NCBI GenBank assembly: GCA_016191845.1
Contig: JACPVF010000006.1
Span: 1-64,000, forward strand
Reading direction: 5' to 3'
DNA length: 64,000 nt
From: Chloroflexota bacterium
GTDB taxonomy: Bacteria; Chloroflexota; Anaerolineae; Anaerolineales; Villigracilaceae
The notes under the pieces are model-generated. The model was not told the DNA's origin. It saw only the letters and a list, made by a program, of their open reading frames with translations, and ran no database searches. Position numbers and translations under genes: made by a program. This document shows, in pieces, positions 29,990-43,517 of this stretch. Positions within the stretch are counted from its first letter, which is position 1, and each line of letters begins with the position of its first letter.

Positions 29990-30044
29990 GTGGTGTCCTT
30001 TCGCGAAGAGGTCGGTTAAAGACTCGGGTTTTGTGGATAGGGCC

Positions 30045-30093
30045 AAAACCGCAAAGACGCCAAGGTCGCGAAGCGTTTATGCGCCTCTGCGGT
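30045..30093. repeat. Dispersed inverted repeat of the CGCAAAGACGC family
   Basis: ACCGCAAAGACGC and GCGCCTCTGCGGT are imperfect inverted arms (11 of 13 positions) around AAGGTCGCGAAGCGTTTAT. On the minus strand TTTTGG follows, so it can also end transcription of the acetyltransferase at 30114. I recall similar 'CTTTGCG' elements from other bacterial genomes. Confidence 0.6.
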
Positions 30094-30113
30094 AAAACTG
30101 GATGGAACCCGAG

Positions 30114-31151
30114 CTAGCTACTTAAGGATTCTACACTGATTTCCCTGCCGGGGCGAATCTCCTTTTCGTACATGTCGGAGGCCAGATGGACGTGCATGCC
30201 CGCGCTTTCGTACAGACGCAGGGCGCCCGTCAGATTGCTGGCGTCCACGTGCAGGGCGGCGCGGGGCTTGCCGCGACGATGGAACTCATCAAAGGAGTGT
30301 TGCAGCAGGGCCAGGCCGACGCCGCGTTTGCGCCAGGCGCGGCGCACACCCAGGGTGCCGACGTACCCCATTTCGGGGTCATCATAGGAGTGCGAGCGGC
30401 ACAGACAGATGCCCGCCACTTCGTCGCCGTCCATGGCGAGGAAATACAGGGTCGGGTCGAAGTCCGCGCGGTCGATCATGAAGTGTTTGAAGCGTGCCAG
30501 ACCTTCCTCGTAAGGTTGGTCCACGTGACCGAAGTGGTCGCGGAAGGCTTCCTCGTCGGCCTGGTAGATGGCTTCGAGGTCGGCGGGGGTATACGTGCGG
30601 ACGGTGATACCTTCGGGCCAGACGGGTGCAGGCGGCGGTGCGTCTAGTTCGATGCGCATCTGGTACGAACTGCGGATGTAGTGATAGCCGAGGCTTTCGA
30701 AAAGCTGCTTTGCGCTTTCGACCTGGCGATAGTTGCCCACACGTGGCGCGAAACGCAGGTCGGTGGGAGTTTCGGTCATCGCCTGGCGCGCGCGCTCTTC
30801 GGCCCAAGTCAGCATCCAGGTGCCGATGCCGAGGTGTTCGTAATCGGGGTCGACGCGGCCCCAGATCCACGGGTGGACGACAGGCTTGACGGTGGTCCAC
30901 ACTTCGACGTAGCCGACCATCTGTCCGTTCGGGGCGAACACCACGCGGATGTCGCGGGCGGGGTCGAAGTTGGGTGACTTCCACTCGTTGCGGATGGCGT
31001 CGGCGTCGGTGATCTCGTCCTCGCCGATGGCGGACTGCGACCAACGATTGTACAACACGATGGCGGCTTCCACGTCTGGCATGGACGCGCCGCGGGCGGT
31101 GAAGCCCTCTGGCAGGGTGACGGTGGTATGGTCTTGCAGAATGGTACTCAT
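30114..31151 (-). CDS. Tandem-GNAT acetyltransferase (345 aa)
   Basis: AAAAAAGG lies ten bases before the ATG. Two GNAT domains follow each other: the first (about 15-165) has VGYVEVWTTV and PDYEHLGIGTWMLTWAEERA, and the second (about 178-335) has the acetyl-CoA loop YVGTLGVRRAWRKRGVGLAL and HVDASNLTGALRLYESAGM. MshD (mycothiol synthase) has this two-domain plan, but here the substrate is unknown. It is a paralogue of 31209-32210: in both, PPAPVWP opens the second domain. The 57-bp gap from that gene contains an ATTGCAT/ATGCAAT hairpin just before the ribosome binding site. Confidence 0.85.
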   Translation of the reverse strand: MSTILQDHTTVTLPEGFTARGASMPDVEAAIVLYNRWSQSAIGEDEITDADAIRNEWKSPNFDPARDIRVVFAPNGQMVGYVEVWTTVKPVVHPWIWGRVDPDYEHLGIGTWMLTWAEERARQAMTETPTDLRFAPRVGNYRQVESAKQLFESLGYHYIRSSYQMRIELDAPPPAPVWPEGITVRTYTPADLEAIYQADEEAFRDHFGHVDQPYEEGLARFKHFMIDRADFDPTLYFLAMDGDEVAGICLCRSHSYDDPEMGYVGTLGVRRAWRKRGVGLALLQHSFDEFHRRGKPRAALHVDASNLTGALRLYESAGMHVHLASDMYEKEIRPGREISVESLSS

Positions 31152-31208
31152 GGTCTTTCCTTTTTTATTGCATTGTGAGGCCGCAAAGCGGTCGATGCAA
31201 TGACAAGT

Positions 31209-32210
31209 CTAAACTTCTTCTTCGATATCGCGGCCGGGGCGGTATTCCTTCTCGTAGATGACGTACTCGGCGGCGATCTTCATTCCAGCCTTCTGGTACA
31301 GGCGCGTGGCGCCGGTGGGATTCGAGGCATCCACGCCCAGGCCGACAGTGTTCATGCCGCGTTTGTGGAACTCGCCGAAGGAGTGCAGCAACAGGGCCAT
31401 ACCCAATCCGTGCTTGCGCCACGGGCGGCGGACTCCCAGCGAGCCAACCCAGCCAATGCCCATGCGGTAGCGGCACAGCGAGTAGCCTGCGATCTGGTCC
31501 CCATCCCAGGCGATGAACCACAGGGACGGGTCGAAGGCTTCGCGGTTGGTCATGCGATTCTGCCAGTTGGCGAAGGTGCCCGGGGTGTGTCCCCAATGAT
31601 CGCTGAAGGCTTCTTCGTGAGCCTCGAAGACGGCCTGGTTGTGGTCAGCCAGCACGAAAGGACGCAGTTCCACGTCCTTCGGCCAGACAGGCGCAGGCGG
31701 TGCTTCGGTCAGGTTGATCTCCATGCGCCACGAGAAGCGGATCGGCTGGTAGCCTTCGGCCTCATGCATTTCGCGGCTAATTGTGTCACCGATGGACATG
31801 CCGTTGCGGATGTACACGCGCAGGTCGGGTTCGGCGAGCTTCATCTCTTCGCGGGCGCGTTCGTCCATGGCGCGCAGCATGGCGGTGCCAATGCCACGTC
31901 CCATGAATTCGGGGTGGACGTAACCATCACCATCGTATTTGGCATGTGCATGACGGTTGTTGAATTCTTCATAGCCGACAATCTGGCCGTTGGATGCTTC
32001 CACCACCCAGGCGTTGGTCTCGAGTGTGAATCCTTCGTTCTTCCACTCACGGGCCAGTTCCTCGGGGGTGACGGCCACGGTGGCGTCGCCGTCGTGGGTG
32101 CATACATCAAGGATGAGTTGGGCCACACCTTCGAGGTCGGTCCACGCTGCGGGACGCAGGATCAGGCTCGGGTCCAGGAGGGCGTTGGTAGGTCGATCAA
32201 GAGCGGTCAT
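31209..32210 (-). CDS. Tandem-GNAT acetyltransferase (333 aa)
   Basis: The N-terminal GNAT domain has VVEASNGQIVGYEEFNNRHA and PEFMGRGIGTAMLRAMDERA; the C-terminal one has WVGSLGVRRPWRKHGLGMAL and GVDASNPTGATRLYQKAGM. The conserved R-x-x-G-x-G/A acetyl-CoA loop is intact in both. Its start at 32210 lies inside the end of the preceding gene (32197), so it belongs to the four-gene acetyltransferase operon starting at 33906. It probably arose with 30114-31151 by tandem duplication. Substrate unknown. Confidence 0.86.
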   Translation of the reverse strand: MTALDRPTNALLDPSLILRPAAWTDLEGVAQLILDVCTHDGDATVAVTPEELAREWKNEGFTLETNAWVVEASNGQIVGYEEFNNRHAHAKYDGDGYVHPEFMGRGIGTAMLRAMDERAREEMKLAEPDLRVYIRNGMSIGDTISREMHEAEGYQPIRFSWRMEINLTEAPPAPVWPKDVELRPFVLADHNQAVFEAHEEAFSDHWGHTPGTFANWQNRMTNREAFDPSLWFIAWDGDQIAGYSLCRYRMGIGWVGSLGVRRPWRKHGLGMALLLHSFGEFHKRGMNTVGLGVDASNPTGATRLYQKAGMKIAAEYVIYEKEYRPGRDIEEEV

Positions 32211-32760
32211 GTTGTTCCATCCAATCTTTGTGCAGGACGCTCATGTAGAGCATGTCCCAGCGCTTGCCTTCGCGCAGGAGCGCCCCACGTTGACGGCCTT
32301 CGTGCTGGAAGCCCGCCTTCTCGTAGGAGCGGATTGCGCGCTGGTTATATTCGAATACGTTCAAGGTCACGCGGTCCAGGTTCAGTTCAAGGAAGGCATA
32401 TTGCAGGATCAACTGCATCGCCTCCGTGCCGTAGCCCTTGCCCCAGAAATCGCGCGGACCGATGCCGAGGCCCACGAATGCGTCGCGGGAATTCCATCGG
32501 GTCAGGCCCAGGTTGATATCGCCGAGTAATTGATCGTCGGCAATGGTGCGGATGGTGAACCAGGCCATGTCGTCACCCTGTTCGCCAAGTTCCTTCTCCA
32601 GCCAGTCCTTGATGGTCTTGGCCGAGCGCAGGCGCGGCGGGTCGCTATCGAGCAGACGCTTGAACTCCGAGTCGCGATTCCACGAGGCGAAGTGCTTGCT
32701 GACTTCCTCAGGGTCCACAGCGGCCAGATGCACCAGCTTGCCTTTCAGCAGATCGTTCAT
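32197..32760 (-). CDS. RimJ/RimL-type GNAT acetyltransferase (187 aa)
   Basis: The start at 32760 (MNDLLKGKLVHL) overlaps the previous stop in ATGA and has GGAGG upstream. The protein is a single GNAT domain of the ribosomal-protein-acetyltransferase type: VHLAAVDPEEVSKHFASWNR, LGDINLGLTRWN, LGIGPRDFWGKGYGTEAMQL, LNVFEYNQRAIRSYEKAGF. It is clearly paralogous to 32757-33320 and 33325-33906. RimJ/L-like enzymes acetylate protein N-termini, aminoglycosides or other amines; which applies here is unknown. Confidence 0.88.
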   Translation of the reverse strand: MNDLLKGKLVHLAAVDPEEVSKHFASWNRDSEFKRLLDSDPPRLRSAKTIKDWLEKELGEQGDDMAWFTIRTIADDQLLGDINLGLTRWNSRDAFVGLGIGPRDFWGKGYGTEAMQLILQYAFLELNLDRVTLNVFEYNQRAIRSYEKAGFQHEGRQRGALLREGKRWDMLYMSVLHKDWMEQHDRS

Positions 32761-33320
32761 AACCCGCCTCCGTACAGGGACATCCACTCTTCCCGCAGGA
32801 TGCCCATGTAGTAGGCGTCGGTGTGACGGCCTTCGCGGAATGTCTCTCCACGTACGGCGCCTTCCATCTTGAAGCCGACCTTCTCGTAAGACTTCAGCGC
32901 ACGCGGATTGTAGGCATGCAGAGCCAGCGACACGCGCCGCAGGTTGGCCTCGAGGAATCCATACTGGACGATCAGGCGCATGGCGTCTGTGCCATAGCCC
33001 TTGCCCCAGTACTCGCGTTCGCCGATGACAATGCCGACCCAGGCGTCACCCTGTTGCCAGTTGAACCACAAGGTGACCTCGCCGATGAACTTGTCCTCGG
33101 CCAGGGTACGGATGGAGAAGCGGACGAGGTTGTCCTTGTCTTTTTCGTCGTCCTTCTCCATCCATTCTTTGAACTTTTTCTCCGACCACAATTGGGAGGG
33201 GTCACTGTCTGCCAGACGATGGTATTCAGTGTCCCGCCCCCAGCGGGCGAAGGCTTTTGCAAAATCCTCCGGCGACTCGGTCGCCAGGCGGACGAGGGTG
33301 CCGCGATATAAGTCTTTCAT
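32757..33320 (-). CDS. RimJ/RimL-type GNAT acetyltransferase (187 aa)
   Basis: The start at 33320 (MKDLYRGTLVRL) is four bases after the preceding stop; a longer in-frame ORF to 33437 would overlap that gene. Motifs are VIGEREYWGKGYGTDAMRLI for acetyl-CoA binding and LHAYNPRALKSYEKVGFKME at the end of the fold. It is similar to its downstream neighbour (WGKGYGT, RSYEK/KSYEK) and probably resulted from duplication. ATGA overlap with the next gene supports a shared mRNA. Confidence 0.88.
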   Translation of the reverse strand: MKDLYRGTLVRLATESPEDFAKAFARWGRDTEYHRLADSDPSQLWSEKKFKEWMEKDDEKDKDNLVRFSIRTLAEDKFIGEVTLWFNWQQGDAWVGIVIGEREYWGKGYGTDAMRLIVQYGFLEANLRRVSLALHAYNPRALKSYEKVGFKMEGAVRGETFREGRHTDAYYMGILREEWMSLYGGGL

Positions 33321-33324
33321 CGCG

Positions 33325-33906
33325 TTACCCGCCTTTGGCGTTGGATTCCCACTCCGAGCGTAACTGCCCGAAGGTGAGCAGGTCCCAGGTGCGGCCGTCG
33401 CGCTGGACGGCTTGTCGGCGGCGGACCTCTTCCACAAAGCCGAATTTCTTCAGCAGGCGGATGGCGCCTTCGTTGTACTCAGGGACCATGGCCGAGACGC
33501 GGAACAGGTTCAGCTCCGCGAAGGCGTAGCGCAGGATCAGACCGAGGGTCTGGCTGCCCAGCCCACGGCGGCGATCCTCTGCCGCGCCAATGCCCAGGCG
33601 GACCCAACCGTTGCCGTTGGTCCAGTCGACCCACTCGATGACGGCCTTGCCGATCAGGCGGTCGTCTTCCTGGGCGCGGATGGTGAAGTAGAACAGGTTC
33701 TTGTCCTCTTCCATCTTCTTCTCGATGGATTCGTATTCCTTCTTCACCAGCGCGGGCGAAAGCGGGCGGACGGGTTTCAATTCCATCAGGCGCATGAAGT
33801 CGGAGTCGTGTGTCCACTTGGACTCGATCTCGGGGTGCACCTCGTGGTCGATGGGGCCCAGGCGGATGTCCTGCGCCTCAAAGAGTTGGGTTTGAATGTC
33901 GAGCAT
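33325..33906 (-). CDS. GNAT acetyltransferase, first gene of the operon (193 aa)
   Basis: CTGGAGG precedes the ATG at 33906. The product has the same fold as the next two: LGPIDHEVHPEIESKW at the N-terminus, LGIGAAEDRRRGLGSQTLGL with the R-R-R-G-L-G acetyl-CoA loop, and VPEYNEGAIRLLKKFGFVEE. The 5' region is exceptional: promoter, 27-codon leader ORF and two intrinsic terminators end only 18 bases before the start codon. Expression should therefore depend on read-through. This predicts that the operon is induced by a ribosome- or RNA-sensed condition. Confidence 0.86.
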   Translation of the reverse strand: MLDIQTQLFEAQDIRLGPIDHEVHPEIESKWTHDSDFMRLMELKPVRPLSPALVKKEYESIEKKMEEDKNLFYFTIRAQEDDRLIGKAVIEWVDWTNGNGWVRLGIGAAEDRRRGLGSQTLGLILRYAFAELNLFRVSAMVPEYNEGAIRLLKKFGFVEEVRRRQAVQRDGRTWDLLTFGQLRSEWESNAKGG

Positions 33907-33923
33907 GGTTTCCTCCAGATATT

Positions 33924-33959
33924 AAAAAAAGCGGTCACGGGTTTTGGGCCCATAACCGC
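33924..33959 (-). terminator. Attenuator terminator 2, directly before the GNAT operon
   Basis: On the minus strand GCGGTTATGGG (33959-33949) pairs with CCCGTGACCGC (33941-33931), 11 bp with two G-U pairs, then seven Ts (33930-33924). The ribosome binding site of the first GNAT gene begins a few bases later, so no gene can use it as a normal 3' terminator. Confidence 0.8.
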
Positions 33960-33971
33960 CTGGGAAGAGAA

Positions 33972-34008
33972 ACAAAAACGGCCACGGGCTTGTGCGCTCC
34001 GTGGCCGT
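33972..34008 (-). terminator. Attenuator terminator 1, after the leader ORF
   Basis: On the minus strand ACGGCCACGG (34008-33999) pairs perfectly with CCGTGGCCGT (33988-33979), followed by TTTTGTTT. The loop carries GGAGCGCAC (34000-33992), identical to the leader's ribosome-binding region at 34124-34116. Confidence 0.85.
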
Positions 34009-34026
34009 GAATACACTGCGTGTAAT

Positions 34027-34110
34027 CTACCGACGAACAGGCGCACTACGACAAGGATCAACACTGATACCAGCGAGGGACATGTTGATGAAGAACTGTT
34101 TCATTACCAT
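34027..34110 (-). CDS. Putative regulatory leader peptide (27 aa)
   Basis: The ATG at 34110 follows AGAAAGGAG at a spacing of ten bases. The peptide begins MVMKQFFINMSLAGIS, continues VDPCRSAPVRR and ends at TAG 34029-34027. It is too short for a domain. Its position between a promoter and two tandem terminators is that of an attenuator leader such as those of erm, vga-type or amino-acid genes. GTGCGC within its 3' half (34046-34041) can pair with GCGCAC of the leader's own ribosome binding site or of terminator 1's loop, giving exclusive structures. Translation is inferred. Confidence 0.55.
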   Translation of the reverse strand: MVMKQFFINMSLAGISVDPCRSAPVRR

Positions 34111-34156
34111 CGTTCGTGCGCTCCTTTCTGTAGAATGTGCTTTTTCAAGCCCGCGT

Positions 34157-34187
34157 AGTGTATCATGCGGCCTTGACAGGCGTCAAG
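34157..34187 (-). promoter_or_regulatory. Promoter of the leader/GNAT operon with overlapping dyad
   Basis: Minus-strand TTGACG (34186-34181) and TACACT (34162-34157, within TGATACACT) are 18 bp apart. The dyad CTTGAC-GCCT-GTCAAG (34187-34172) covers the -35 box and could be a repressor site. Confidence 0.55.
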
Positions 34188-34199
34188 AGATTCGACCCA

Positions 34200-35216
34200 T
34201 TACCTTGGACCGATGGGGTCGATGCGACCCGCGATCAGGTCGGCGAGCACCTGCTCGACCAGGCGTTGTTTGCCCGGGGGTAGCAGCGCGGGGTCCACAC
34301 CCGAAAGGCCGAGCGGCGACTGAACGTTGACTCCGCCCTGGCCTGCGACCAAATTCGGCCAGGCTGACTGGATGGCCTTGATCGTGTCGGGTTGCATCGC
34401 CATCACGAAGCCTGCAGGGCGTTGGGCGGGCATGACATCGGCGATGGTCCACACGCCCGTGGTGCCGATGTAGGTCAACAGGTCGTCGGTGGCCACATCG
34501 GGGTAGACGTAGATCATGCCGACCTTGCGCTGGATGATGAGCACATCGGCGTAGGCATTGTAGGTGGATTTTTCGGCGTCGGTGGGAATCTCGATGAACT
34601 GGGGGTAGGTCCACGGCTGGAGGTACACCGTATTGCACAATCCACAGAAATAAGATTTGCCGTTGGTGAAGGCGACGGCGGCCTCCTGGGCGGCAGCGTT
34701 GCCTTGTGGGACGATCATACCGATCTTATATTCATCGGTCAGCATGGCCGAGACATAGCCCGCCAGGAAGGCGGCCATGTCCGGGCTGGCATTGTTCGCC
34801 AGCACGCTGACGTTTCCGCCGGCGGTGATGTCTGGGATGTTGATGGTCAGGAACTGGGCCTGTGGGGCGGCAGCGGCCAGCGCGGCAATGCCCGGGTCGG
34901 GCGGCAGAGCGATGACCACTTTCAGGGTCGGGTCGGCTGCGTCGGCGGGGCTGAGGCTGTTGCGGACCTGGAAGCGGAATCCCGAGGCCTGGGCCAGGTC
35001 GTAAACGGTCTTCTGGTACAAGTCGGAGGAGTCCTTGTCCATATCCGCAGGAAGGATGAGGATGGCCAGCGGCGTGTCGGGGGTGGGCGTCAGCGTGGGG
35101 GCGGGGGTGGGAGTCTCGCTGGGGATGGCGGTGGGCACTTCCGTGGCCTTGGGACCACAGGAAGCCAGCACCAACGCAAGGGCGAGGAGAAGGATCAGGG
35201 AAATTTTAGCTCGCAC
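34200..35216 (-). CDS. BMP-family substrate-binding lipoprotein
   Basis: The GTG start at 35216 has GGAG upstream. The 338-residue protein has a lipoprotein signal (LILLLALALVLASCGPK, cysteine at about residue 20), a Pro/Thr linker, and a BMP/PnrA-like periplasmic-binding fold: the QKTVYDLAQASGF segment, APQAQFLTINIPDI, FLAGYVSAMLTDEYKIGMIV and the late GVWTIADVMP, then IKAIQSAW. Such proteins bind nucleosides or related ligands for ABC import. No permease or ATPase is adjacent, so it may be an orphan sensor or binding protein. Upstream and downstream genes are unrelated. Confidence 0.8.
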   Translation of the reverse strand: MRAKISLILLLALALVLASCGPKATEVPTAIPSETPTPAPTLTPTPDTPLAILILPADMDKDSSDLYQKTVYDLAQASGFRFQVRNSLSPADAADPTLKVVIALPPDPGIAALAAAAPQAQFLTINIPDITAGGNVSVLANNASPDMAAFLAGYVSAMLTDEYKIGMIVPQGNAAAQEAAVAFTNGKSYFCGLCNTVYLQPWTYPQFIEIPTDAEKSTYNAYADVLIIQRKVGMIYVYPDVATDDLLTYIGTTGVWTIADVMPAQRPAGFVMAMQPDTIKAIQSAWPNLVAGQGGVNVQSPLGLSGVDPALLPPGKQRLVEQVLADLIAGRIDPIGPR

Positions 35217-35266
35217 GGGGGTTACTCCAATTTGAGATGCGCTCGATTATAACGCCCCGCTGTAAC

Positions 35267-35305
35267 AAAAAAACTCGGAAGCCTGCCGAGGACAGGTCTC
35301 CGAGT
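35267..35305 (-). terminator. Intrinsic terminator of the Hsp20 gene
   Basis: ACTCGGA (35273-35279) pairs with TCCGAGT (35299-35305), with an inner CCTG/CAGG stem. On the minus strand a run of seven Ts follows. Confidence 0.8.
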
Positions 35306-35325
35306 TTTGGGTGGGACTACCGGTA

Positions 35326-35700
35326 TTAGTTGACGTTGACTTTGATCTTCTTCGGGCGGGCGGACTCGGCCTTGGGCAGGCGCAGGGTCAGGATGCCGTT
35401 GGCGATGTGCGCTTCGACGTGATCGGCGTCGATGGCGGCGGGCAGACGCAGGGTCCGCGCAAAGGGACCCTGGGGCAGTTCACGTAGCAGGAAGGCGGTC
35501 TCGTCGGCCTTGAACTCGCCTTCGATGCGGACGACATCCTCCAGCACCTGGATGTTCAGGTCGTCGGCGGTCAGACCGGGTACGAGGGCCGAAAGCTCAT
35601 AGGCCTCGTCCTCTTCGCGGATGTTGACGTTCAGGCTGCGGGGCTGGGCGGCCCAACGGCGCATGGAACGGGCAGGGTAGGTTTGCAGGTAGAGGGTCAT
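35326..35700 (-). CDS. Small heat-shock protein, Hsp20/alpha-crystallin family
   Basis: AAGGAGTAACCC precedes the ATG at 35700. The 124-residue protein contains the alpha-crystallin domain (about 20-115): NVNIREEDEAYELSALVPGL, VRIEGEF, FARTLRLPAAIDADHVEAHI and the A-x-x-x-N-G-I-L-T-L signature (ANGILTLRLPK). The C-terminal IKVNVN replaces the usual IXI anchor. It is an ATP-independent holdase chaperone in the cytoplasm. No CIRCE or HAIR element is visible upstream. Confidence 0.94.
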   Translation of the reverse strand: MTLYLQTYPARSMRRWAAQPRSLNVNIREEDEAYELSALVPGLTADDLNIQVLEDVVRIEGEFKADETAFLLRELPQGPFARTLRLPAAIDADHVEAHIANGILTLRLPKAESARPKKIKVNVN

Positions 35701-35813
35701 GGGTTACTCCTTATACGTTTAAGTCAATGCCGCTATCTTATCGGGGGAATATCAGAAGCGTGCAAGCGGTTCATCAAAAATCCGTTAGAGAATCGGGCGG
35801 CCCCGCGCGGCGG

Positions 35814-35819
35814 TATAAT
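35814..35819 (+). promoter_or_regulatory. -10 box of a predicted leaderless mRNA (M23 gene)
   Basis: A perfect TATAAT ends seven bases before the ATG at 35827. No Shine-Dalgarno sequence is present. Confidence 0.6.
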
Positions 35820-35826
35820 CGCGCCC

Positions 35827-36522
35827 ATGCGCAAAAAATTCGTGTTGATCGCCGTGCTGGTGGCCTTTGTGACGGCGGGTGCCTACCTGTATCTCACCCT
35901 GTTTCGTCCGACCACCAAACGGGCAGTGCAGGTCTTCGACTGGTTCCGTGACCCCGCCTCCCGCCCCGACCTGATGATGGAACCCGGCACCCGCTGTGGC
36001 GACGCTCCGTTCATCTTCCCGACCCACGGCCTGGTCGGATTCATCTGGGACGATTTCTTCAATCATAAGCGTCACCAGGGAATCGACATCTTCGGCGGAC
36101 AAGGGCTGGGCGTCACGCCGGTCACTGCCGCCTACCCGGGCTACCTCACGCGCCTGGCAGACTGGAAATCCACGGTTATCATCCGCGTGCCCGACGACCC
36201 GTTGAATCCCGGACGGCAGATCTGGGTCTACTATACCCACATGGCGGACCCAAATGGCAACTCATTCATCTCGTCCGCGTTTCCGCCGGGAACGACGGAG
36301 GTCTATGTGGAGGCAGGCACCTTCCTCGGTTCTCAAGGTAATTACTCAGGCGATCCTGCCAACCCGACCGGTATCCACCTGCACGTGTCCATCGTGAAGG
36401 ATGACGGTTTTGGCAAGTTCAAGAACGAACTGGATATCGAGAATACCTACGATCCCTCGCCGTACTTCGGCTTGCCGCTGAACGCGAACGAGAATCCCGA
36501 CACGATCCCGGTGTGTCAGTGA
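35827..36522 (+). CDS. M23-type metallopeptidase, membrane anchored
   Basis: The start is set at 35827 (MRKKFVLIAVLVAF); the frame opens earlier but there is no ribosome binding site, and a -10 box lies just before this ATG. The 231-residue protein has one N-terminal membrane anchor (5-25). The extracytoplasmic domain has the M23 zinc motif H-x-G-x-D (H83, G85, D87 in RHQGIDIF) and HLHV (184-187). M23 peptidases cut peptidoglycan cross-links or pentaglycine. The third zinc ligand and full lysostaphin fold are present in outline. It suggests a peptidoglycan wall, as does the penicillin-binding protein at 56625. Confidence 0.83.
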   Translation: MRKKFVLIAVLVAFVTAGAYLYLTLFRPTTKRAVQVFDWFRDPASRPDLMMEPGTRCGDAPFIFPTHGLVGFIWDDFFNHKRHQGIDIFGGQGLGVTPVTAAYPGYLTRLADWKSTVIIRVPDDPLNPGRQIWVYYTHMADPNGNSFISSAFPPGTTEVYVEAGTFLGSQGNYSGDPANPTGIHLHVSIVKDDGFGKFKNELDIENTYDPSPYFGLPLNANENPDTIPVCQ

Positions 36523-36533
36523 ATGGAGCAGAT

Positions 36534-37121
36534 ATGAACGATCAGGAATTTGCTGGCAAGGTGGTTTTGATCACGGGCGCGGGCAAGGGGACAGGCGCGG
36601 CCCTGGCTGAAGCCTTTGCGGCGCGCGGGGCGCGGGTGGCGCTGAACGACATTTCCCCGATCAATGTGGATGAAGTAGCCGCGCGCATCACGTCCAGTGG
36701 CGGGCAGGCGCGCTCCTACCTGCACGATGTAGCCAAGAAGGTCGGCGTGCAGGCTTTAGTCAAGCAGGTGGAGGATGACTGGGGCCGCGTGGACATCCTG
36801 ATCCAGCACGCGGCCGTCGAGCCGCATACCCCGCTCCTGAACATGGACGAGTGGGACTGGCACCGCACCCTCGACGTCAACCTGACAGGGGCCTTTCTCG
36901 TGCTCCAATCGCTGGGACGGGTGATGCGCGCCCAGGGCGGCGGGGTCATCGTCAACCTGGTAGGCCGTAGCGAGGCGGCAGGAGCATATGCCGCCAGCAT
37001 GGCTGGTCTGCGTGGACTGAGCGAAGCCGCCGCACGGGAGCTGGCCCCGTTTGGGATACGGGTCCACGCGGTGGAATTGGGGGTGGATGCCGTGGAGCGT
37101 GTGCTGGCACTGTGCCGATAA
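36534..37121 (+). CDS. SDR-family protein lacking the catalytic lysine
   Basis: GGAGCAGAT precedes the ATG at 36534. The 195-residue Rossmann protein has the NAD(P) glycine motif TGAGKGTG (14-21), the acidic ND at 38-39, and QHAA where NNAG is usual. The catalytic tyrosine Y152 is present in AYAASMAGL, but the lysine that should be four residues later is Met156 (ATG codon at 36999-37001). This one-base change from AAG, together with the altered NNAG, suggests loss of oxidoreductase activity or a new role. It starts 11 bp after the M23 gene and probably shares its transcript. Confidence 0.85.
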   Translation: MNDQEFAGKVVLITGAGKGTGAALAEAFAARGARVALNDISPINVDEVAARITSSGGQARSYLHDVAKKVGVQALVKQVEDDWGRVDILIQHAAVEPHTPLLNMDEWDWHRTLDVNLTGAFLVLQSLGRVMRAQGGGVIVNLVGRSEAAGAYAASMAGLRGLSEAAARELAPFGIRVHAVELGVDAVERVLALCR

Positions 37122-37126
37122 AAGAA

Positions 37127-37170
37127 AAAGTCGCAAAGGGTGGATTCTCTTTGCGACTTTGTGTTTTTTA
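37127..37170 (+). terminator. Intrinsic terminator of the M23-SDR transcript
   Basis: AAAGTCGCAAAG (37127-37138) pairs with CTTTGCGACTTT (37149-37160), followed by GTGTTTTTTA. It also lies before the end of the convergent PAP2 gene. Confidence 0.85.
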
Positions 37171-37181
37171 TTGAACGACGA

Positions 37182-37739
37182 TTAAAAGAAAATCCCCAAA
37201 ATACTTGAAGCAACCGATAAGATCCACGGCGCAAACTGCATACCGAGCAGCGCTACGATCACGCCCAGGATCGCGCCCGCCACGATATCCGAGAGATAAT
37301 GGACTCCCATCGCAACGCGTGCCAGGGCTACCAACGGCGCCCACACCCACAGGGCGACAGCCACCCAGGCAGGTCCCAGGGCCGTGGCGATGGTGGCGAT
37401 CAGGAAGGCGCGCGCGGCATGCCCCGACGGGAAGGAGTGCGGGTCCGTGTTGCGATAGATGCCGCCCCATTCGCCTTCGGGCCGTCGGCGGCGGACGATG
37501 AACTTGACGGCCAGCACGAAGACTGCCAGCACGGCGATGCCCGCGAACTCCAGCACCGACCAGTCCTTCCAGAACTTCTGGCTGGCGAACCACAAGAGGA
37601 TCAGAGCCACGGCCCAGAACCACGAGTCACCGGAGTGCGCGAAGAAGATGGCAATCGAACGCAGCAGCCCGGGCTTCTCGGCCACGCGCAATTGGTCGGA
37701 CAGACGGGCGTCGAGTTCGAGGATGGATTTGAAGGTCAT
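37182..37739 (-). CDS. PAP2-type membrane phosphatase
   Basis: The 185-residue protein has about five membrane helices and the three PAP2 motifs: KFIVRRRRPEGE (K-x6-R-P), the central PSGHAARAF with the catalytic histidine, and ARVAMGVHYLSDIVAG (R-x5-H-x3-D). Such enzymes dephosphorylate undecaprenyl pyrophosphate or phosphatidic acid at the membrane. Recycling of the cell-wall lipid carrier would fit its M23 neighbour, but substrate is not proven. The C-terminus has two more hydrophobic helices. Confidence 0.9.
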   Translation of the reverse strand: MTFKSILELDARLSDQLRVAEKPGLLRSIAIFFAHSGDSWFWAVALILLWFASQKFWKDWSVLEFAGIAVLAVFVLAVKFIVRRRRPEGEWGGIYRNTDPHSFPSGHAARAFLIATIATALGPAWVAVALWVWAPLVALARVAMGVHYLSDIVAGAILGVIVALLGMQFAPWILSVASSILGIFF

Positions 37740-37755
37740 GCGGTCTCCTGAAAAT

Positions 37756-37787
37756 AAAATGTGTCACTCAGTGAAGTGACACATTTT
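37756..37787 (-). terminator. Intrinsic terminator of the nucleotidyltransferase gene
   Basis: AAAATGTGTCACT (37756-37768) pairs with AGTGACACATTTT (37775-37787). Confidence 0.8.
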
Positions 37788-37803
37788 AACACCTTGGCGG
37801 CTC

Positions 37804-38856
37804 CTACTTGGCAGCGCTCTTCTTCGGCTTTGCCACACTCTTTTCCTTGGGCGTGGGCTTGCCTTTGGGAGTCTTCGGTGCAGGCTTCTTCACCGATTTG
37901 ACGCGGGCGGGCTTGTCCTCGGTCTTTTTTGTTGTGGCGGGCTTCTTCGTAGATTTGGCGGGAGCTTTCTTCGCAGCGGCCTTGGTGGATTCCGCTTTGG
38001 GAGTGATGGGTTTCTTCGCGCGGCGGACCGGCTTGGGCGCGGATTCTGTCACGGGGGTGGATTCGGCGCGGGTGGCGGCTTCCGCTTCGAGGCGGGCTTG
38101 CAGGTCCTCGCGCAGCATTTCCAACTGGTGCGGCTTGTCCACGTCCATGCAGGGTTCGGCGTGTTCCCAGACGATGGGACGGCCGGTGATGCCGATGCGT
38201 TCGGTGATGCGCTCCACTGCGTCGGTCAGGGTGAGGTTGCCTGTGGCAAGCATGAAGAGGGTGCCAAAGCCGATGGTGGCCGCCTGCTTCATGGGACTCT
38301 TGCGATTGCCGATCAACTGCTCCCACATGTCGAGATGCTCGGTGGCCATGCGCACGTGCGAGACGTTGATGTCGGCCCCGCAGACCTGCATGTCCTTGAG
38401 CTTGGTGTAGGTGCGGCGGGAGTTGGGAAAGCGGGTTTCCATCACCTCACGCGGGCAGACGCCGTAGTACAGGTCGTCGCGGGTCTGCATGCAGGTCTCG
38501 ATCAGCCAGTCGACATGCTCGCCGCGCAGGGCGGGAATGTCGGACGAGACGATCAGCACGTACTCGGCCTGTGGATTGATCTCCAGAACCTTGTTCACGC
38601 CCGCGACGATGTTCGATAACATGCGTCCCTGATTGGAGAGGTAATGCAGGGGCTTGGAACAGGTCAGGCCACTCTTGGGCGTCAGACCGACGATGATGAC
38701 GTTCTCCACATCCCTGGCTTCCCCGAGCGCGTCCAGCACCCATTGGATCATCGGTTTGCCTGCCACATCGAGCAGGGCCTTCGAGTCTCCTTTGGCATAT
38801 GTGTAAAGCGGGTCCTGGGGCAGGGGAATTCCACCTGCGGTGACAATCGCATCCAT
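37804..38856 (-). CDS. MobA/NTP-transferase-like protein with histone-like tail
   Basis: The 350-residue protein starts MDAIVTAGGIPLPQDPL. The first 240 residues are a nucleotidyltransferase fold: VTAGG, the GDSKALLDVAGKPMIQWVLD segment, and the metal-binding VLIVSSDIPALRGEHVDWL. This family transfers NMP to sugars, molybdopterin or other acceptors. Residues about 255-350 are nearly all Lys, Ala, Pro, Thr and Ser, ending KKSAAK, much like histone H1 tails, and are unusual for such an enzyme. It lies 21 bp downstream of a conserved gene of the 'quinate dehydrogenase' annotation group. Confidence 0.75.
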   Translation of the reverse strand: MDAIVTAGGIPLPQDPLYTYAKGDSKALLDVAGKPMIQWVLDALGEARDVENVIIVGLTPKSGLTCSKPLHYLSNQGRMLSNIVAGVNKVLEINPQAEYVLIVSSDIPALRGEHVDWLIETCMQTRDDLYYGVCPREVMETRFPNSRRTYTKLKDMQVCGADINVSHVRMATEHLDMWEQLIGNRKSPMKQAATIGFGTLFMLATGNLTLTDAVERITERIGITGRPIVWEHAEPCMDVDKPHQLEMLREDLQARLEAEAATRAESTPVTESAPKPVRRAKKPITPKAESTKAAAKKAPAKSTKKPATTKKTEDKPARVKSVKKPAPKTPKGKPTPKEKSVAKPKKSAAK

Positions 38857-41967: not shown

Positions 41968-42969
41968 GTGACGCTGGCTGCTTCCATCCTGGCCGGCGAC
42001 AGACTGTCGCTGGCTCGCTTGTTGACCCAGGTCGAGAACGATTCGCCCGATGGCCGCGCCGCGCTGGTGGAGCTTTTCCCGCACACGGGGCGGGCTCACC
42101 TCATCGGTGTGACGGGCGCGCCCGGCACGGGCAAGTCCTCGCTGGTCAACCAACTGGCCCTGCACTACCGCAAACAAGCGGACAAGCGCGTGGCTGTCGT
42201 GGCCGTGGACCCGTCCAGCCCGTTCACGGGCGGGGCGGTGTTGGGTGACCGTGTGCGCATGCGTGACCTGAGCGGCGACCCGAACGTCTTCATCCGCTCG
42301 ATGGCCTCGCGCGGATCGCTTGGCGGGTTGGCCCAGGCCACCGCGGGCATGGTGCAGGTCTTTGACGCGGCGGGCTTCGATGTGATCCTGATCGAGACCG
42401 TGGGCGCGGGTCAGAGCGAAGTGGACATTGCGCGCCTGGCGCATACCACCCTGGTGGTGGAGGCGCCTGGCCTGGGTGACGACATCCAGGCTATTAAGGC
42501 GGGCATCCTGGAGATTGCCGACATTCTGGTAATCAACAAAGCCGACCGTCCCGGGGTCGAAAATACCGAGAAGGCATTGAAGTCCACGCTGGAGCTGGCC
42601 CACCCCACCCAGCGTGTATTTCATCATCATGGACGTTACTCGTATGCGACGGTTGAAATGCCCTTCGATGCCAAGTTATGGATTCCGCCCATTCAGAAGA
42701 CGGTATCCACTGAAGGCAGGGGCATCCCTGAACTGGTCGAGGCCATTGCCCGCCATGCGGAGCACCTCCGCTCGAGCGGAGATTGGACCGCTCGCGAGCG
42801 AGCCAGGCTCGAGGTCGAGTTGGAGATGTTGATCCAGGAAGCGCTGGTCGCCCGTTTCCGTGAAGAGGTCTCACCGCAGCAATTTCGACAGGTGGTCGAT
42901 CAAATGGTGCAACGGGATGTATCGCCGTGGGAGGCGGTCCAGTCCCTGTTGAACGGGAGGTCGAAGTGA
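41968..42969 (+). CDS. meaB: MeaB/ArgK-family GTPase, mutase chaperone
   Basis: A GTG at 41968 is used; no clear ribosome binding site is seen, so translation probably couples to the preceding gene. The 333-residue protein shows the G1 loop GVTGAPGTGKSSLVNQL (48-64), VVAVDPSSPFTGGAVLGDRV, FIRSMASRG, the G3 segment VILIETVGAGQSEVD, and G4 NKAD at about 189-192. MeaB uses GTP hydrolysis to gate cobalamin loading and to protect methylmalonyl-CoA mutase. Confidence 0.94.
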   Translation: MTLAASILAGDRLSLARLLTQVENDSPDGRAALVELFPHTGRAHLIGVTGAPGTGKSSLVNQLALHYRKQADKRVAVVAVDPSSPFTGGAVLGDRVRMRDLSGDPNVFIRSMASRGSLGGLAQATAGMVQVFDAAGFDVILIETVGAGQSEVDIARLAHTTLVVEAPGLGDDIQAIKAGILEIADILVINKADRPGVENTEKALKSTLELAHPTQRVFHHHGRYSYATVEMPFDAKLWIPPIQKTVSTEGRGIPELVEAIARHAEHLRSSGDWTARERARLEVELEMLIQEALVARFREEVSPQQFRQVVDQMVQRDVSPWEAVQSLLNGRSK

Positions 42970-43517
42970 GCATCATCTATGGAGAGCGCGTGCGCCTGCG
43001 CGCCGTCGAGCGCGAGGATGTACGAAAGTTCCAGGCCTGGGTCAACGACCCCGAAGTGACGCGTGGACTGTCGCTTTATCTGCCCCTGTCCAGCCTCGAT
43101 GAGGAAAAGTGGTTCGAGGGGTTGCAGAACCGCGATCCACACCAGAGGCCGATGTCCATCGAAATCAAGGATGGCGACGGCTGGACGTTGATCGGCAATT
43201 GCGCAGTGTTCGACCTCGACTGGGTCGTCCGCTCGGCGGAATTGGGCATCATGATTGGCGAGAAATCGGTCTGGAACCAGGGTTACGGCACTGAGGTCAT
43301 GACTCTGCTGTTGAAGCACGGCTTCGAGACCTTGAACCTGAACCGCATCTGTTTGCGTGTGTACGCGGAGAACGCCCGCGCCCGCCGCGCCTACGTCAAG
43401 GCAGGCTTTGTGGAAGAGGGTCGCCTGCGTCAGGCGATGTTTAAACACGGTCGTTACGACGACGTCATTCTAATGAGCGTGCTGGCTTCGGAGTGGGCCG
43501 CGCGCAAGGAGAGTTGA
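42966..43517 (+). CDS. GNAT acetyltransferase in the mutase operon
   Basis: The GTG at 42966 overlaps the MeaB stop (GTGA) and has GGAGG upstream. The 183-residue protein has YGERVRLRAVEREDVRKFQA, LGIMIGEKSVWNQGYGTEVM and RVYAENARARRAYVKAGFVE, the RimJ/SpeG-type GNAT pattern. Acetyl-CoA-binding glycines are present. It overlaps the next gene by one base. A link to propionate metabolism is possible by context only; substrate unknown. Confidence 0.88.
   Translation: MSIIYGERVRLRAVEREDVRKFQAWVNDPEVTRGLSLYLPLSSLDEEKWFEGLQNRDPHQRPMSIEIKDGDGWTLIGNCAVFDLDWVVRSAELGIMIGEKSVWNQGYGTEVMTLLLKHGFETLNLNRICLRVYAENARARRAYVKAGFVEEGRLRQAMFKHGRYDDVILMSVLASEWAARKES

Follow-up and report, generated by a model that had tools for sequence, protein, structure and literature searches.

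The window analysed here, a 64,000-nucleotide stretch of a Chloroflexota contig, contains five GNAT acetyltransferase genes which lie on the same (minus) strand downstream of a short leader region. The first gene of this operon, GNAT1 (33325-33906), was assigned to Pfam PF13302, and GNAT2 (32757-33320) was also identified by Pfam search. GNAT3 (32197-32760) was recognized in domain searches, as were GNAT4 (31209-32210) and GNAT5 (30114-31151), both of which are tandem-domain, MshD-like proteins scoring under the curated cut-off. GNAT1 has distant relatives among solved structures, and no substrate could be named. A resistance role for the five enzymes is inferred, not shown.

Between GNAT4 and GNAT5 (31205-31160, minus strand), an inverted repeat (TTGCAT..ATGCAA around GACCGC/GCGG) is followed by an A-rich stretch. 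Another GNAT gene of the window (42927-43517), with 27% identity to GNAT1, stands directly before a gene which we take to be ribose-phosphate pyrophosphokinase-like. The DNA beside the GNATs of L033-L038, loci fetched by homology to GNAT1, resembles the surroundings of this additional gene.

The leader of the operon begins with a promoter-like pattern of the sigma-70 type with an extended -10 element (34157-34186, minus strand): TTGACG, 18 nt and TACACT, with TG before the second hexamer. It is followed by segment 1, GGAGCGCAC (34116-34124), which comprises the Shine-Dalgarno region of the leader and forms the 5' arm of a proposed anti-antiterminator. The leader ORF has 27 codons (MVMKQFFINMSLAGISVDPCRSAPVRR), running from the ATG at 34110 to the TAG ending at 34027, and is supported by the ORF listing and by conservation of its frame. 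Near its end lies segment 2, AGTGCGCCT (34039-34047), which encodes Ser-Ala-Pro and can pair with either segment 1 or segment 3; the motif GTGCGC (GUGCGC in the RNA) is found inside the ORF at 34046-34041. Immediately 3' of the leader stop, folding alone predicts a small hairpin, P0 (34012-34024), within the helix formed by segments 2 and 3.

Terminator 1 with its T tract (33974-34008) is found family-wide and has a perfect 10-bp stem, formed by arms A (34008-33999) and B (33987-33978); the T tract, TTTTTGTTT, begins with the last base of this stem. A second copy of GGAGCGCAC (33992-34000), termed segment 3, spans the end of arm A and the loop of terminator 1 and, according to pairing tests and folding, is the 3' arm of the antiterminator. 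Terminator 2 (33924-33961), seen in the sequence and in tests of cross-pairing between arms B and C, has a stem of 11 bp formed by arms C and D (33959-33949 and 33941-33931), followed by T7. The Shine-Dalgarno sequence of GNAT1, GGAGG (33916-33912), comes directly after it, with the start ATG at 33906. A first-pass annotation had placed the promoter, the Shine-Dalgarno sequence, the 27-codon ORF, GUGCGC and both terminators; all of these positions held when the sequence was re-read. Its claim that GGAGCGCAC occurs both at the leader's ribosome binding site and in the loop of terminator 1 also held, the second copy spanning the top of the stem as well, and the 11-bp stem of terminator 2 stands with the correction that two of the 11 pairs are G-U.

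Homologues of GNAT1 (E <= 0.001) were present in 54 of 61 genomes. The conservation of the leader was followed with a covariance model, R1, which covers the region from the leader end to terminator 1 and was built from 36 leaders (35 from GNAT1 loci and a second copy from the window's genome). The element was detected in 22 of the 30 GNAT1-homology loci L009-L038, the window's own genome included, and 16 of these 22 have it directly before GNAT1. Sixteen leaders among the counted loci had also trained the model, so their own matches were expected. L023 and L031 are among the matching loci, as is L029 with a weak score (25.8 bits). The element of the L030 cluster lies just outside the fetched locus (seen as L133), and the model found no element in L027, L033 or L034-L038 within the locus DNA searched. 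In a second collection, made of one-genome-per-species contigs titled Chloroflexi, Anaerolineales, Anaerolineaceae and a few genera, the element was present in the GNAT1 clusters of 23/23 loci, directly before the gene in 22; the nearest GNAT1 there is 91% identical. L043 has a GNAT1 relative with 74% identity, a leader about 1.1 kb upstream, apparently a tandem GNAT gene in between, and a gene order that differs from the other GNAT1 clusters.

R1 matched 135 of the 152 genomes of the family (E <= 0.01), representing 23 of 26 genera, while 17 genomes had no match at this threshold. These E-values are approximate, and the training leaders of the model came from members of the family searched. 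One copy was found in 30 of the matching genomes, two in 53, three in 33, four in 18 and six in one, i.e. 105 of the 135 carry two or more. Within the window itself, only this leader was found well (90.7 bits; next best 14.7). A phylum-wide draw of 400 genomes gave 30 matches at E <= 0.001, of which 21 belong to the same family, seven to other families of the order, one to the same class and one to a lineage beyond the class. The match in the same class (L156) looks like a plausible copy by eye. Upstream of the Shine-Dalgarno sequence, a promoter pattern of the same type was recognized in 68 of 83 family leaders. These comparisons show that the leader family is real and conserved beyond chance.

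The match beyond the class (L154) was taken as chance; terminator 1 is matched there and segment 2 is absent. The terminator in L154:1-2001 is nearly identical to terminator 1, the loop GGAGCGCAC included, which is odd for a chance match.

No description of this leader family was found in the open-licence literature searched. The main text of a genome-wide attenuator survey mentions ABC-leaders and does not mention Chloroflexi, and a survey of leader peptides names Chloroflexi once. In Rfam 15, no family scored above its gathering cut-off for the element when positions 30000-38000 of the window and eight loci with copies were searched, the sole match in this DNA being a tRNA in L063. Weak matches in the window had scores far under the gathering cut-offs and were dismissed.

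A 22-base BLAST match within the window's genome revealed a second leader, MSTIARINTFVPAGSIPSRSAPVARPR (L002), which has one terminator and lies directly before an ABC exporter. Two other matches from the same search (L004 and L007) were read and look like chance. Target genes were assigned by tblastn of six probe proteins against 1.6 kb downstream of 94 distinct copies, and a GNAT, ABC-transporter, ABC-F or MFS gene was found within this distance in 93 of them. The targets comprise 51 single-domain GNATs, five tandem GNATs, 30 ABC transporters (29 exporters and L021, where a gene for an ABC ATP-binding protein lies within a GNAT cluster), six ABC-F genes, one MFS gene and one copy without an assignment. 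In L134, another gene stands between the leader and the GNAT gene. The unassigned copy (L103) has none of the six probe classes within 1.6 kb downstream and no Shine-Dalgarno-led ORF in its leader; the start of its downstream gene is one we take to be a type I restriction methylase. Many copies were hand-picked for diversity, so these shares are not an unbiased census. Thirty-five of the 94 came from GNAT1-homology loci (34 GNAT and L021), and the other 59, which were not found through GNAT1, precede 29 ABC exporters, 22 GNATs, six ABC-F genes, one MFS gene and, in one case, none of these. Thus, a target of the resistance-type class follows in 58 of these 59 copies.

By homology, with matches below curated cut-offs, the downstream genes are of resistance type; their function is inferred. 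The L121 exporter is an ABCB-type half-transporter with eukaryotic ABCB4/ABCB1 as its best solved matches, bacterial multidrug chains and YheI appearing lower in the list. The ABC-F proteins, which are cut by the locus ends, match a ribosomal-protection ABC-F model below its cut-off. For the L102 ABC-F the best solved match was EttA, with resistance ABC-F chains further down, and a housekeeping role for this protein is not excluded.

Leaders before ABC-F genes (L102, L107, L109, L115 and L119) lack a Shine-Dalgarno sequence, and their ATG follows the -10 box at a distance of only a few bases, which suggests leaderless leader mRNAs. Segment 1 would then have to be replaced there by something else. 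In several species (L017, L018, L105, L111, L131 and L139), a palindrome of the type CCCTCTCCC...GGGAGAGGG, whole or in part, separates the terminator(s) from the first gene; it looks as though an interspersed repeat inserts at this place again and again.

One alternative explanation is that two ordinary terminators end the transcript of the upstream lipoprotein-like gene or shield the GNAT operon, the intervening ORF being due to chance. In its favour, the upstream gene (34200-35216) runs in the same direction, and a terminator scan listed no other site between this gene and terminator 2 (the loop limit of the scan misses terminator 1 too). Of the 21 relatives tested, 12 also have a homologue of the upstream gene in the 3.5 kb upstream. 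However, in all of these 12 except L047 a distance of about 650-820 bases separates the end of the homologue from the leader, and no homologue was found in the remaining nine, two of which have under 600 bases of upstream sequence. Moreover, the same leader fronts ABC exporters and ABC-F genes elsewhere, and the promoter, Shine-Dalgarno sequence, frame and pairings are conserved together. We regard this explanation as very unlikely.

The pairing between segments was examined by comparing copies. A total of 111 entries was available, some being one genomic place fetched twice, and seven without a Shine-Dalgarno-led ORF (L102, L103, L107, L109, L115, L118 and L119) were excluded from the pairing tests. 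The remaining 104 entries correspond to 88 distinct copies, or 84 once identical peptides were removed. L021 was further excluded from the leader-peptide, promoter and swap analyses (n = 83), and the start of L122 was misassigned in the pairing tests. Copies L140-L157, from the phylum-wide draw, entered none of the tests; L146, L147 and L149-L157 were read by eye.

For the 84 distinct leaders, the natural duplexes of segments 1 and 2 (z -8.3) and of segments 2 and 3 (z -5.7) were both stronger than all of 2000 within-class shuffles. The control pairings were no stronger than chance, the natural value being reached by 1669 of 2000 shuffles for the middle of the ORF with segment 2 and by 564 of 2000 for segment 1 with segment 3. 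In the 28 ABC copies alone the 2:3 pairing was weaker (19 of 2000 shuffles reached the natural value; none of 2000 for 1:2). Shuffles leave relatedness in the comparison, so swaps were limited to 41 disjoint pairs of closest relatives. For 2:3, the natural partner was better in 25 pairs and the swapped partner in five, with 11 ties (p 1.6e-4); for 1:2 the result was marginal (16 against 7, 18 ties, p 0.047). The control swaps were near balance (19/17 and 17/12), while arms A and B of terminator 1 covaried clearly (22 against 1). Compensating pairs could also be read by eye, namely CGUAGUG/CACUACG (L055), CGCAGUG/CACUGCG (L052) and GGAUUGC/GCAAUCC (L155 and L157). The covariation thus supports an antiterminator which competes with terminator 1.

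By script, 86 of 88 copies keep the frame in which the pairing segment reads Ser-Ala-Pro or a close variant, and correction of L122 raises this to 87, while the leader length varies between 21 and 34 codons when the misassigned L122 is set aside. The frame is lost in L021, and that of L107 is shifted relative to L102. All anchor patterns used for segment 2 contain GCG, so the invariance of this codon arises by construction, and Ser-Ala-Pro is largely fixed in the same way; L152, for example, has GTG at the position of the GCG codon. The peptide upstream of the motif varies among copies, and for this reason the drugs that would stall ribosomes there cannot be predicted.

The shared architecture of a leader ORF, alternative hairpins and a terminator would also fit an attenuator of the trp or ilv type that responds to amino-acid shortage. 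Against this, clusters of regulatory codons are absent from the 83 leaders: with the last ten residues disregarded, three consecutive identical residues (M, G, S or F) occur in just eight of them. In addition, the targets are acetyltransferases, ABC transporters, ABC-F and MFS genes and include no biosynthetic operon. An amino-acid attenuator is therefore very unlikely.

Alternatively, the C-terminal (S/C)RSAP of the nascent peptide might itself stall the ribosome, this pause, which a signal would release or strengthen, being the sensor. Arginine precedes segment 2 in 76 of 83 leaders, which among them use each of the four CGN codons for it, and the serine before it is coded by TCN and AGC alike; RxPP-type motifs are known to stall ribosomes (PMC10951233). 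The conservation of the arginine with varied codons may reflect some constraint at the peptide level. However, RAPP is absent and proline never follows Ala-Pro (0/83 leaders). Ser-Ala-Pro follows largely from the anchor patterns and its nucleotides are under pairing constraint; its serine is replaced by I, N or G in 7 of 83 leaders. Furthermore, a ribosome parked at the motif would hide segment 2 and so favour termination. Peptide arrest as the sensor is considered unlikely.

A further possibility is an RNA bound by a protein or small molecule (a riboswitch or the target of an RNA-binding regulator), with the ORF as a passenger. In its favour, the terminator stems keep their sequence and not their structure alone, but the absence of any matching Rfam family in the window region and the eight loci searched speaks against it, and the kept frame and ribosome-binding-site spacing point to translation. 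This explanation is very improbable.

Instead, the leader is likely to be a ribosome-mediated transcription attenuator which senses slowed translation and controls the GNAT operon; no expression data are available, and translation of the leader, termination and the inducer are all inferred. Sequence comparison shows the elements and how they are conserved, both pairings (2:3 and 1:2), the kept frame and the target class, while the order of events is a prediction that rests on folding only. A ribosome held early in the leader, presumably by a ribosome-targeting antibiotic, would cover segment 1 and leave segment 2 exposed. The latter, AGUGCGCC at the end of the leader ORF, would then pair with the emerging segment 3 and part of arm A, delaying or blocking terminator 1. 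A ribosome which reaches the stop codon would cover segment 2 and leave segment 3 free, so that terminator 1 and subsequently terminator 2 fold and transcription ends. Without ribosome loading, 1:2 pairing would sequester segment 2 with the same outcome, and this is the weakest branch of the proposal. Induction by antibiotics is inferred because of the target genes and has not been shown.

For 83 of 84 copies, folding of the transcript before arm B emerges gave a 2:3 probability of at least 0.5; the 2:3 helix of the window also covers part of arm A at this stage. The predicted 2:3 probability in the window depended on the ribosome, being 1.0 with an early ribosome, 0.65 at codon 12 and 0 at the stop codon. 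Without a ribosome, just before arm B emerges, 2:3 reached 0.87 vs 0.13 for 1:2, which is a poor fit to a simple off state in the absence of translation; 1:2 became dominant only once terminator 1 was out. Once complete, terminator 1 wins at equilibrium (mean probability 0.96 in the 28 ABC copies and 0.86 in the 56 others), indicating that any switching would have to be decided kinetically.

In 52 of the 84 distinct copies, terminator 1 is followed by a second terminator (45 single-GNAT, five tandem-GNAT, L021 and the MFS copy). None was detected within the search range of 130 bases in the other 28 ABC copies or in the GNAT copies L017, L046, L085 and L129, and this reach missed a candidate that is visible in L046. 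Most ABC copies have a single terminator, whose stem is longer and includes part of segment 3. Where both terminators are present their stems change together, e.g. from GGCC to AGCC (L018 and L055) or as GGCUGC with GGCUUU (L063), and arm B, the 3' arm of terminator 1, is complementary to arm C, the 5' arm of terminator 2.

A bolder reading is a double-lock attenuator, in which one decision of the ribosome would disable two terminators in series. When the antiterminator takes arm A, arm B would be free to capture arm C before arm D is made; when terminator 1 has folded and is nonetheless read through, arm C would be free and terminator 2 would act as a backstop. The natural B:C pairing of the 52 copies was stronger than 2000 of 2000 shuffles, and swaps between closest relatives favoured it by 12 to 3 (10 ties, p 0.018). 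In folding with arm A and everything upstream masked, B:C formed before arm D in 52 of 52 copies. In the same folding, C:D won in 48 of 52 once arm D was out, which counts against the double lock. Pairing of A with D was not supported by the swap test (13 vs 7, p 0.13), and repeated duplication of a terminator could possibly also give like stems. On balance the evidence falls slightly short of favouring the double lock.

The first-pass annotation had proposed three mutually exclusive pairing segments, and this is supported, as both 2:3 and 1:2 passed the comparative tests (with the marginal swap result for 1:2). It had named loss of the leader and terminators in relatives as a refuting outcome, and the opposite was observed; the covariation check it suggested on homologous leaders favoured the natural 2:3 and 1:2 partners over shuffles and swaps. 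Its view that ribosome position decides between the hairpins is supported as a prediction, given that leader translation, short RNAs and the inducer are all inferred. It had not foreseen that the antiterminator, by folding, also occupies part of the 5' arm of terminator 1, that the same switch precedes ABC exporters, ABC-F genes and an MFS gene, or that the terminators change in concert.

If the attenuator reading is true, Anaerolineales use one RNA switch to turn on defence when translation slows, and a predicted antibiotic-response regulon can be found by sequence in a little-studied lineage. GNAT operons without a known substrate would become candidate resistance or stress enzymes. The copies would also offer a natural series for the use of a Shine-Dalgarno region as a switch arm and for the opening of two terminators by one decision.

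Several antibiotic-responsive leaders are known with which the present family can be compared. In Bacillus subtilis, experiments on the bmrB leader of bmrCD showed that antibiotic-slowed ribosomes lead to read-through (PMC4191407). Like the Chloroflexota leader, for which the anti-antiterminator is only proposed, it combines a leader ORF, terminator, antiterminator and anti-antiterminator ahead of an ABC multidrug exporter (PMC4191407), and the L121 exporter matches solved chains of YheI, which we take to be BmrC. The bmrB terminator lies inside the ORF (PMC4191407), whereas the Chloroflexota terminator follows the stop codon, the leader's Shine-Dalgarno region serves as one arm of the switch, and most GNAT copies have two terminators. 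The vmlR leader of B. subtilis, for which there is experimental support, requires a uORF and controls an ABC-F gene (PMC9226507). It shares the ABC-F target and, if the proposed anti-antiterminator of the Chloroflexota leader holds, the order of anti-antiterminator, antiterminator and terminator (PMC9226507). Its uORF has only three codons and lies within the anti-antiterminator hairpin, and an extra hairpin partly hides the Shine-Dalgarno sequence of the gene (PMC9226507), while the Chloroflexota leader is 21-34 codons long and uses its end as a pairing arm.

In Escherichia coli, the uORF of toiL-topAI-yjhQ senses several antibiotic classes and stalls ribosomes at various codons (PMC12121999). 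YjhQ is a GNAT protein. Unlike the present leader, this system acts on the topAI ribosome-binding site and on Rho-dependent termination, and its target is a toxin-antitoxin system (PMC12121999). The likeness to RAPP-type arrest peptides, a C-terminal Arg-x-Ala-Pro (PMC10951233), is loose; the Chloroflexota leaders lack Pro-Pro, their downstream genes do not concern protein localization, and RNA pairing explains much of the conservation.

With respect to the features of BmrB/VmlR-type leaders, induction by ribosome-targeting antibiotics that depends on leader translation is a prediction, and among the sequence features the anti-antiterminator is the least secure, since its 1:2 pairing is strong in shuffles, at p 0.047 in swaps and outweighed until terminator 1 has emerged. 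The other sequence features are present: a Shine-Dalgarno-led short ORF and an intrinsic terminator lie between promoter and gene (translation and termination in the cell being inferred), the antiterminator covaries, and the downstream gene is of resistance type (function inferred by homology). As a prediction, the Chloroflexota leader is thus likely to represent a new, lineage-wide variant of ribosome-mediated attenuation.
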